Source of the DNA: Candidatus Rokuibacteriota bacterium
Lineage (GTDB): Bacteria > Methylomirabilota > Methylomirabilia > Rokubacteriales > CSP1-6
Assembly (NCBI GenBank): GCA_003220225.1
Contig: QHRU01000036.1
Coordinates: 62,001-126,000, forward strand
Reading direction: 5' to 3'
Length of the DNA stretch: 64,000 bases
Below, in pieces: positions 35,126-41,127 of the stretch; within the stretch, counting starts at the first letter, position 1; each line of letters begins with the position of its first letter. Under the pieces are notes generated by a model. The model ran no database searches, was not told the DNA's origin, and saw nothing but the letters and a program-made list of their open reading frames with translations. The position numbers and the translations under genes were made by a program.

Positions 35126-35196
35126 CGCGGGAACCGGGGATCCCATCGCGGGGTTTGGGCCGTGTGCGATGCTGGTACCCGATGGAGGGACACCCC

Positions 35197-35388
35197 ATGA
35201 CAGGATCCCGCTCGTACGACGCGGTCATCACCGACCCCGCGAGCCCGATCTTCCGCTACGCCAAGCGTGCGTACTTCATCGTCGATCGCCAGGGTGTCCT
35301 TCGCGACATGAAGGTTCAGCAGAACCCGCTCGAGCTGCTCAAGCCGGAGGAAGTCCTGCAGGCGCTCAAAGACTCGGGGGCGAAGTGA
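35197..35388 (+). CDS. Peroxiredoxin-tail protein, 63 aa (possible remnant)
   Basis: From ATG 35197 with GGAGGG upstream. The sequence [20 protein letters not shown] then [15 protein letters not shown] matches the C-terminal part of AhpC/TSA-type peroxiredoxins, but the N-terminal part with the peroxidatic Cys is missing. It has no Cys and cannot be a peroxidase alone. Its stop shares GTGA with the candidate selenoprotein, so it is transcribed and probably translated with it. Either a truncated remnant or a small accessory protein. Confidence 0.55.
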
Positions 35389-35921
35389 GGTCCTCCATCG
35401 TCGCGCTCGCCGCCGCCGTCGCCCTGACGGTCGCGGCGGTCGCGGCCGCCGCCCCCGATTTCGCGAGCCTCCAGATCCAGCCCTACGAGCCGCCGAAGCC
35501 CGCGCCCGCGTTCTCGCTGCCCGGGCTCGACGGCACGCCGCAGACGCTCGAGTCGCTGCGCGGCAAGGTGGTGCTCCTCTTCTTCTGGGCCACCTGGTGA
35601 CCGGACTGTCGGAAGGAGTTGCCTTCCGTCGACGCCCTCTATAAGGAGTACAAGGCCCGGGGTCTGGAGGTCCGCCTGATCGACTTCCGCGAGAGTCCCG
35701 ACGTCGTTCGCAAAGCGGTCGCCGAGCGCGGCTACACCGCCCCCGTGCTGCTCGACGAGAGCGGCGACACGACGGGCCGCATGTATGGCGTGTGGGGCCC
35801 GCCGACGGTGTACCTGCTCGACCGCCAGGGCCGGCTCGTCGGCCGCGCGGCGGGGCCGCGCGCGTGGGAGTCGCCCGCCGCGCGTGCGCTGATCGAGGCG
35901 CTCCTCTCCGCGCCGCGCTGA
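35385..35921 (+). CDS. TlpA/thioredoxin-like exported protein, candidate selenoprotein (in-frame TGA)
   Basis: The frame from GTG 35385 runs to TGA 35919 with one internal TGA at 35598-35600. Around it the protein reads [10 protein letters not shown]-(TGA)-PDCRKELP, so TGA takes the place of the first Cys of the WATWCxxC redox motif, giving a UPDC site (residue 72, with Cys75). Both sides are well-formed TlpA/redoxin: signal peptide [40 protein letters not shown] before, and [16 protein letters not shown] with the cis-proline after. A hairpin follows the TGA at once. With selenocysteine the protein would be 178 residues, a periplasmic disulfide reductase or peroxide reductase. If the cell lacks Sec machinery it would be a broken gene. 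Confidence 0.7.
35610..35628 (+). promoter_or_regulatory. Candidate bacterial SECIS hairpin
   Basis: CGGAAGG (35610-35616) pairs with CCTTCCG (35622-35628) around the loop AGTTG. The loop begins 16 bases after the TGA and has G in its second position. This agrees with the general bSECIS plan: a short stem-loop inside the coding region just 3' of UGA with a G at the start of the apical loop, bound by SelB. Confidence 0.5.
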
Positions 35922-36277
35922 TGGCGAAGGCGGAGCTCGAGTTCTTCCGTCCCGATCACCTGCCGTGGACGCGGGTGGCGGGCTCCGCCACCGCCGGCGC
36001 CGGCGGCGCCGGCATCGAGGAAAAAGTCCTGAGCCGCGATCCGGCCACCGGCGACCTCACGCGCCTGCTCCGCTTCGCGCCCGGCGTCCGTACCGCCGAG
36101 ACCATCGCGCACGACTTCTGGGAGGAGGTCCTGATCGTCGAGGGCAGCCTCGAGGACCTCGGGCTCGGCCGCACGTTCAGCGCGGGCATGTACGCGTGCC
36201 GTCCGCCCGGCATGCGCCACGGCCCGTACGCCTGCCCGGGCGGAGCGCTGCTGTTCGAGACGCGGTACCGGAGGTGA
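35921..36277 (+). CDS. Cupin-domain protein
   Basis: The product is 118 residues starting at an ATG that overlaps the stop of the TlpA-like gene (TGATG). EEVLIVEGSLEDLG and MYACRPPGMRHGPY form the two cupin motifs, like the ChrR C-terminal cupin. A metal is probably bound by His/Glu residues. Function unknown; ChrR-type cupins sense oxidants, which would suit its redox neighbour. A nearly identical but frameshifted second copy lies at 39811-40064. Confidence 0.7.
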   Translation: MAKAELEFFRPDHLPWTRVAGSATAGAGGAGIEEKVLSRDPATGDLTRLLRFAPGVRTAETIAHDFWEEVLIVEGSLEDLGLGRTFSAGMYACRPPGMRHGPYACPGGALLFETRYRR

Positions 36278-36289
36278 GCCACCCCGCTG

Positions 36290-39285: not shown

Positions 39286-39520
39286 TAGGCGGCGGACAAA
39301 CCGCGCCGAGACGCACGCCCTGATCAACATGAGCCACGAGCGGCGCACGCCGCTCAACTCGATCATTGGATTCACGCGCCTGCTGCTCAAGCGCCACGAG
39401 CTGAGCGAGCGCCAGGAGACCGACGTGGGCTCGGTGCACGACAGCAGGAGCCACTGCTCAAGCTTATCAACAGCGTGCTCGACCTGTCGGGCCGGCCAGG
39501 GTGGCTCGCCCGCCGCCACC
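39286..39520 (+). pseudogene. Degraded HisKA domain of a histidine kinase
   Basis: In one frame [20 protein letters not shown] continues to [11 protein letters not shown], the dimerisation and phospho-His (H-box) region; the standard HELRTPLN reads HERRTPLN. After a frameshift near 39440, [12 protein letters not shown] follows. It matches the domain expected directly after the remnant at 36290-37250. No ATPase domain follows. Confidence 0.65.
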
Positions 39521-39541
39521 GGCGCTGCTACACTCGCGTCC

Positions 39542-39811
39542 GTGGCCCTGCCGCTCGACGGAATCGTCGTCGTCGACCTGACCCAGAACGTCGCCGGTCC
39601 GTTCTGCACCCAGACGCTCGGCGACATGGGCGCCGACGTGGTCAAGGTCGAACGCCCGGGACGCGGCGACGACGCGCGTGCGTGGGGCCCGCCCTTGGTG
39701 TACCTGCTCGACCGCCAGGGCCGGCTCGTCGGCCGCGCGGCGGGGCCGCGCGCGTGGGAGTCGCCCGCCGCGCGTGCGCTGATCGAGGCGCTCCTCTCCG
39801 CGCCGCGCTGA
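39542..39811 (+). pseudogene. Chimeric duplicate: CoA-transferase head joined to TlpA tail
   Basis: Bases 39542-39648 duplicate the first codons of the CoA-transferase at 40114 ([20 protein letters not shown] onward) and continue into the family sequence [10 protein letters not shown] that the gene at 40114 lacks. From 39701 the sequence equals 35811-35931, the C-terminus of the TlpA-like gene. The switch falls in TGGGGCCCGCC, present in both genes. The fusion is in frame (89 codons) but mixes unrelated folds, so a functional product is unlikely. Confidence 0.7.
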
Positions 39812-40064
39812 TGGCGAAGGCCGCGATCCGGCCACCGGCGACCTCACGCGCCTGCTCCGCTTCGCGCCCGGCGTCCGTACCGCCGAGACCATCGCGCACG
39901 ACTTCTGGGAGGAGGTCCTGATCGTCGAGGGCAGCCTCGAGGACCTCGGGCTCGGCCGCACGTTCAGCGCGGGCATGTACGCGTGCCGTCCGCCCGGCAT
40001 GCGCCACGGCCCGTACGCCTGCCCGGGCGGAGCGCTGCTGTTCGAGACACGGTACCGCCGCTGA
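39811..40064 (+). pseudogene. Frameshifted duplicate of the cupin gene
   Basis: It repeats 35921-35931 and then 36035-36277 almost exactly; the 103 bases between are missing, which shifts the frame. The last codons differ slightly (CGCCGCTGA against CGGAGGTGA). The near identity shows the duplication is recent, or an assembly error. Confidence 0.7.
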
Positions 40065-40100
40065 GCGGCTCGGCGACTCGCCCGCCGCCACCGGCGCTGC

Positions 40101-40106
40101 TACACT
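40101..40106 (+). promoter_or_regulatory. -10-like TACACT before the second CoA-transferase
   Basis: TACACT lies 7 bases before GTG 40114 with no ribosome-binding site. The same hexamer and spacing occur in the duplicate just before 39542. Confidence 0.45.
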
Positions 40107-40113
40107 CGCGTCC

Positions 40114-41127
40114 GTGGCCCTGCCGCTCGACGGAATCGTCGTCGTCGACCTGACCCAGAACGTCGCCGGTCCGTTCTGCACCCAGACGCTCGGCGACATG
40201 GGCGCCGACGTCTTCGTTCAGAGCCTGAGATCGGGCGTCATCGAGGAGCTGGGACTCGACTTCGCGGGCGCCGCGCGGCTCAACCCGAGGCTCGTCTACT
40301 GCTCGATCACCGCGTTCGGGACCGAGGGGCCGCTCGCCGCGCTGCCGGGCTACGATCCGCTCATGCAGGCCTACGCGGGGCTGATGTCGATCAACGGCCA
40401 CCCGGGCCAGGAGCCCGCGCGCGTCGGCACGTCGATCGTGGACATGGGGACGGGGATGTGGGCCGCCCTCGGCATCGTCGCCGCGCTGCGCGAGCGCGAT
40501 CGCACGGGACGCGCCATGGAGGTGACCACCGCGCTCTTCGAGACGGCGCTCACGTGGGTCTCGTATCACGCGGCGGGGTTTTTCGGCGACGGCGAGGTGC
40601 CGCAGCCGCAGGGCTCGGGCACGGCGATGATCGCGCCCTACCAGGCGTTCCCGACCGCCGACGGCTACGCGATGATCGCGGCAGGCTCCGACGCGCTCTT
40701 CCGCCGCCTCGCCGACGCGCTGGGCGATCCGGATCTCGGCGCCGACCCGCGCTTCGCCGACAATCCCGCACGCGTGTTGAACCGCGCGGCGCTCGTGGAG
40801 GCGATCGCCGCCTCGACGCGCCGGTTCAAGACGGCGGACCTGCTCGAGCGGCTGCGCGCGGCCGGCGTGCCGTCGGCGCCGATCCTCACCGTGGACCGCG
40901 TGCTGGAGGAGCCGCAGACGGCGGCGAGCGGGATACTGGTGGCGGCGCCGCACCCGCGCGTGCCCGACTATCGCGCCGTCGGCCTGCCGATCCGCTGGGA
41001 CCGCCACCGCCCGGGCGTGCGGCGCGTGCCGCCGCTGCTCGGCGAGCACTCGGCCGACGTGCTCACGTGGCTCGGCTACACGCTCGACGACGTCCGCAGT
41101 CTCCAGACGCGAGGAGTCGTGCAGTGA
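40114..41127 (+). CDS. Family III CoA-transferase with internal deletion
   Basis: The product is 337 residues, about 55-60 short of the family norm. The first 33 residues are normal, then MGADV jumps directly to FVQSLRSGVIEELG; the missing stretch is the [10 protein letters not shown]...NKRS-type region, part of which survives at 39640-39690. The rest is typical (ITAFGTEGPLA, GTAMIAPYQAF). In the catalytic block the usual VDxSLFE reads VTTALFE, so the nucleophilic Asp is replaced by Thr. The enzyme may be inactive. It heads a 4-gene acyl-CoA operon. Confidence 0.7.
   Translation: MALPLDGIVVVDLTQNVAGPFCTQTLGDMGADVFVQSLRSGVIEELGLDFAGAARLNPRLVYCSITAFGTEGPLAALPGYDPLMQAYAGLMSINGHPGQEPARVGTSIVDMGTGMWAALGIVAALRERDRTGRAMEVTTALFETALTWVSYHAAGFFGDGEVPQPQGSGTAMIAPYQAFPTADGYAMIAAGSDALFRRLADALGDPDLGADPRFADNPARVLNRAALVEAIAASTRRFKTADLLERLRAAGVPSAPILTVDRVLEEPQTAASGILVAAPHPRVPDYRAVGLPIRWDRHRPGVRRVPPLLGEHSADVLTWLGYTLDDVRSLQTRGVVQ

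Follow-up and report, generated by a model that had tools for sequence, protein, structure and literature searches.

A probable selenocysteine-containing TlpA/ResA-like protein encoded in a Rokubacterial genome

Organization of the locus

The window (the whole 64-kb stretch of DNA analysed) comes from a Candidatus Rokuibacteriota (Methylomirabilota) genome of 6.03 Mb that is 97% complete (G000). It carries a forward-strand frame whose sole interruption, read directly from the sequence, is a TGA at residue 72, where a TlpA/ResA-type protein would have its first redox Cys (FFWATW-U-PDC). The frame closes at a regular TGA stop (35919–35921). The initial annotation had placed the only break of the frame exactly at this Cys, which proved accurate to the base, and it had described the signal peptide, second Cys and cis-Pro as kept, all of which we located (a hydrophobic N-terminus, TGT at 35607–35609 and cis-Pro at 35802–35804). 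The features, all on the + strand, are:

35197..35388, +, remnant of a selenoprotein peroxiredoxin (Prx) gene, 63 codons; intact Sec-Prx upstream in relatives
35385..35921, +, Sec-TlpA gene, predicted exported TlpA/ResA-like thiol:disulfide oxidoreductase of 178 aa with Sec at residue 72
35385, +, GTG start of Sec-TlpA, overlapping the stop of the upstream ORF; an identical overlap in loci L023 and L024 supports this start
35385..35453, +, predicted N-terminal signal sequence, a hydrophobic stretch with AVAAAA/PDF; end of the stretch judged by eye
35598..35600, +, TGA, putative selenocysteine codon at the first redox Cys position (WATW-U-PDC), from sequence and orthologue comparison
35607..35609, +, TGT, codon of the resolving Cys (C75) of the UxxC motif; invariant
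35610..35628, +, bSECIS hairpin with a 7-bp stem (CGGAAGG/CCTTCCG) and loop AGTTG (35617–35621), from folding, conservation and the published model
35802..35804, +, cis-Pro codon, P140 in GPPT; invariant (cis-Pro/Thr, 35802–35807)
35921..36277, +, ChrR-type cupin gene, its start overlapping the Sec-TlpA stop (TGATG)

An equivalent hydrophobic N-terminus is present in the orthologues. Because mechanical ORF calling splits the gene at the TGA (into ORFs 35169–35600 and 35619–35921), a predicted envelope redox enzyme is easily overlooked here, and it occurs in dozens of genomes of this uncultured soil and groundwater phylum.

Profile searches, for which Sec-TlpA was translated with the TGA as Cys, returned the Pfam families AhpC-TSA (6e-25) and Redoxin (6e-22), both matches spanning the TGA. 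The fold of an AlphaFold model (mean pLDDT, 89.9) matches ResA/TlpA structures (for example, 4nmu, 1su9 and 1jfu), and sequence comparison likewise gives ResA/TlpA-type proteins as the nearest solved structures. The predicted protein combines a thioredoxin fold, a redox motif between strand and helix and, preceding a Thr, the conserved cis-Pro. It reached none of the NCBIfam family cut-offs, scoring 91.5 of 170 bits for ResA, 80.8 of 230 for rhizobial TlpA and 58.9 of 123 for DsbE/CcmG. Judged by its sequence, Sec-TlpA is thus a member of the TlpA/ResA-like superfamily, yet none of the named ResA, TlpA or DsbE/CcmG.

The upstream Prx remnant retains its start and C-terminal third in frame, the middle with the signal peptide and Sec codon being deleted, and its stop codon shares bases with the Sec-TlpA start in GTGA. 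Of the 30 orthologous loci, 24 have an AhpC/TSA-type peroxiredoxin gene immediately upstream, with a TGA at the peroxidatic Cys (QAFTGT-U, TxxU) wherever the active site is present. Among congeners, the same gene has a different internal deletion in G002 (L023) and is intact in G001 (L024). The deletion at 35197–35388 may be an assembly error. Elsewhere in G000 there is a full-length Prx homologue (62% identity) with one in-frame TGA. The cupin gene adjoins the orthologue in 5/30 loci. Further downstream (39500–40211), a mosaic duplication holds copies of 35792–35938 (96%) and 36033–36279 (98%)—the 3′ end of Sec-TlpA and part of the cupin gene—with the start of a CoA-transferase family III gene, itself present in two copies (99%), on either side; this may be a rearrangement or an assembly artefact.

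Selenocysteine machinery and bSECIS hairpin

A search of G000 for the Sec machinery, which the initial annotation had suggested, recovered all four components: a tRNA-Sec with UCA anticodon (69.7 bits; gathering score, 47), selA (585 bits) and selB (372 bits) on the same contig as the tRNA-Sec, and selD (335 bits), which has an in-frame TGA of its own. ARAGORN found no tRNA in the window, the tRNA-Sec being on another contig.

Nine nucleotides past the TGA, the stem arms 35610–35616 and 35622–35628 pair to form the hairpin, as had been annotated from the sequence. The bSECIS model requires a loop of 3–9 nt with a stem of 4–16 bp, a G in the first two loop positions, a spacing of 16–37 nt and a minimum free energy (MFE) of −7.5 or lower (PMC13188914), and the hairpin satisfies all four constraints (5-nt loop, 7-bp stem, AG, TGA-to-loop gap of 16 nt and MFE of −12.5 over 36 nt), so the proposed agreement with a bSECIS held. 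When the peptide was recoded synonymously 20,000 times, only 0.135% of the resulting sequences had a bSECIS-like stem of at least 7 bp. A scan of the 6.03-Mb genome for a TGA followed by such a hairpin gave two hits, Sec-TlpA itself and its paralogue L014, against none in the reversed control. An Rfam search of the 64-kb window gave no match. The folding energy was not lower than that of dinucleotide shuffles of this GC-rich DNA (z = −0.38); because folding energy alone is unremarkable for such DNA, the weight of the hairpin evidence comes from conservation.

A 6-bp stem in fixed register is present in 88/88 TGA sequences (near-copies and paralogues counted in) versus 2/50 Cys homologues. Stem pairs 2–7 are formed in all 30 orthologues; the one that varies, pair 4, is A-U (8), G-C (9) or G-U (13) and is broken in none. 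Taken by itself, pair 4 shows a weak compensatory pattern (Fisher p 0.069, for sequences that share descent). In paralogues, both sides of pairs 2 and 5 have changed, the stem reading GAGGG/CCCTC around an identical loop. Wherever a TGA sequence has Leu in the loop, the codon is TTG or TTA, codons that make up 4/127 Leu codons in four window genes (about 97% being CTC/CTG in neighbouring genes), and in Rokubacterial Cys homologues the residue here is mostly Met (ATG).

The genome looks rich in selenoproteins. The paralogue L014 (G000:C65:5067-5591) encodes WATW-U-PYC-ARELP and has its own AGTTG hairpin with a GAGGG/CCCTC stem. Other contigs of G000 hold further genes of thioredoxin fold, each with a single in-frame TGA in its active site: L019 (WASW-U-GC), L021 (FWTFG-U-YNC), L094 (RGYW-U-PFC), L095 (DWTPG-U) and L098 (RGRW-U-PYC). 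A related group (L080, L083, L084 and L087) has FFTT-x-U-PxC with RREAP or RRESP and a different hairpin (GCGGGAGGCTCCCGC, 3-nt loop).

Conservation and alternative readings

Across 80 related genomes searched, the 35 closest matches (59–99% identity, 33 genomes) have exactly one in-frame TGA each, and the score falls from 222 to 152 bits directly after them. Inspection of 30 of these orthologues at base level placed the TGA at one and the same codon every time, where it aligns with the redox Cys of homologues. Relatives show no random stops elsewhere in the gene. Against two congeners, dN/dS is about 0.2–0.3 before the TGA and about 0.1 after it; within the genus, dN (0.03–0.10) is well below dS (0.12–0.67) on both sides. 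Sequencing error as the source of the TGA is untenable because 32 other genomes share it. A tree of 116 rows unites the orthologues in a single clade of Sec sequences only (43 rows; support, 99/100), which is nested, with weaker support, in a larger and almost all-Sec group that includes one sequence each from Desulfobulbaceae, Desulfofustis and Nitrospirae; the Sec/Cys label requires three changes on the tree. The paralogue L062 looks like a Sec-to-Cys reversion, and a few distant matches have an internal TAG (G064:C74:313-813 (L091), G054:C86:5086-5580 and G055:C31:7231-7725).

Given the machinery, the conserved TGA codon, the conserved hairpin and the codon bias of the loop Leu, we interpret the gene as a selenoprotein gene with a bSECIS, and assign a probability of about 0.95 to its predicted product being a selenoprotein of TlpA/ResA-like fold. 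A pseudogene created by a chance nonsense mutation at the redox Cys codon, already judged unlikely by the initial annotation, would account for the formally interrupted frame and has a parallel in the gene decay nearby (the Prx remnant and the partial copy near 39.7 kb). The same TGA in 30/30 orthologues, purifying selection past it and the retained hairpin leave this reading next to no probability. It is also very improbable that UGA is decoded as another amino acid, whether as Trp by a changed code or as Cys by a UGA-reading tRNA-Cys: homologues do have Cys at this position, but TGA serves as the terminal stop of both Sec-TlpA and its Prx neighbour, G000 has a canonical tRNA-Sec together with selA, selB and selD, and a reassigned codon needs no conserved bSECIS hairpin.

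The split produced by mechanical ORF calling would also fit an outcome of two proteins, in which UGA mostly terminates and a second protein begins at TTG 35619. That division would, in the structural model, run through the thioredoxin fold, separating the strand of residues 62–67 from the helix that starts at residue 73. Moreover, the TTG belongs to the conserved bSECIS loop and is replaced in some orthologues by TTA, which is not a usual start, so we give this outcome very little credence.

Proposed function and relation to known systems

In the selenoprotein reading, SelB would bind the AGUUG hairpin 9 nt downstream of the UGA at 35598 and deliver Sec-tRNA-Sec, placing Sec at residue 72. The product would then be exported to the cell envelope, where the Sec of U-P-D-C would attack a disulfide or selenenylsulfide of the substrate, to be resolved by C75. 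Electrons might, as a guess, be supplied by a CcdA/DsbD-type membrane protein; G000 has two DsbD_TM-family genes, and no ccdA was seen adjacent to Sec-TlpA. The ancestral substrate may have been the Sec-peroxiredoxin whose gene immediately precedes that of TlpA in most relatives and has been lost at this locus here. Judging by the pairing of the Prx and TlpA genes, TlpA may reduce Prx, or the two may share one pathway; we put peroxiredoxin forward as the substrate of Sec-TlpA only tentatively, at somewhat below even odds. Sec-TlpA is likely to be an exported Sec-dependent thiol:disulfide reductase that was ancestrally coupled to a Sec-peroxiredoxin. On a more speculative reading, which we also hold to be less probable than its converse, the Rokubacterial operon would encode an exported relay of two selenoproteins in which a dedicated UxxC TlpA serves as the reductant of a TxxU Prx. 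In the lineage of the window, the Prx would have been cut to a short ORF keeping only its start, frame and overlapping stop, perhaps retained to feed ribosomes to the Sec-TlpA start. The conserved pairing offers a testable hypothesis on the function of these exported selenoproteins.

The initial annotation proposed a new selenoprotein. The assignment as a selenoprotein is supported, and novelty applies to the gene and the clade only; it is not a new kind of selenium protein, because UxxC selenoproteins of TlpA-like and Prx-like groups have already been catalogued (PMC13188914). The gene may already figure in published selenoprotein lists. Sec-TlpA fits the 63 selenoprotein genes reportedly predicted for a Methylomirabilota genome (Deng et al. 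2026, as cited in PMC13188914). A literature search combining Rokubacteria with selenoprotein matched only work on the phylum KSB1. The main text of the deep-Sep paper mentions neither TlpA nor Rokubacteria, and the Prx and TlpA pair is absent from a review that names other selenoprotein operons.

Sec-TlpA resembles the CxxC-containing ResA/TlpA/CcmG proteins (PDB 4nmu, 1su9, 1jfu and 3kcm) in fold, active-site position and cis-Pro, and differs in that these have Cys where the Rokubacterial protein has a predicted Sec. With the ResA-like WAxxUGC selenoprotein family NF041054 and the UGC-containing TlpA family it shares a ResA-like fold and Sec after WAxx; however, it has UPDC rather than UGC and scores 58 bits against the NF041054 cut-off of 300, which places it outside that family. 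A UGC-type gene (L019, WASW-U-GC) is a separate gene of the same genome. In relatives, the partner encoded upstream shares T-x-x-U at its peroxidatic site with the selenoprotein peroxiredoxins PrxU and Prx-SUH, yet scores far below the cut-offs of both (28.9 of 270 and 34.3 of 298, respectively), and the window has a remnant only. A family of Prx-like thiol:disulfide oxidoreductase selenoprotein was reportedly treated by Kryukov and Gladyshev in 2004. Catalogued UxxC selenoproteins include a 'Prx-like thiol:disulfide oxidoreductase' (PF00578, WP_010940744.1) and a 'Thiol-disulfide isomerase-like protein' (cd02966) (PMC13188914). Compared by description, these entries match Sec-TlpA in Pfam/CDD group, in having Sec first in UxxC, in being bacterial and in bSECIS-type decoding (PMC13188914). 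Unlike them, Sec-TlpA belongs to a Rokubacterial clade whose members carry a predicted signal sequence and usually have a Sec-Prx as partner.
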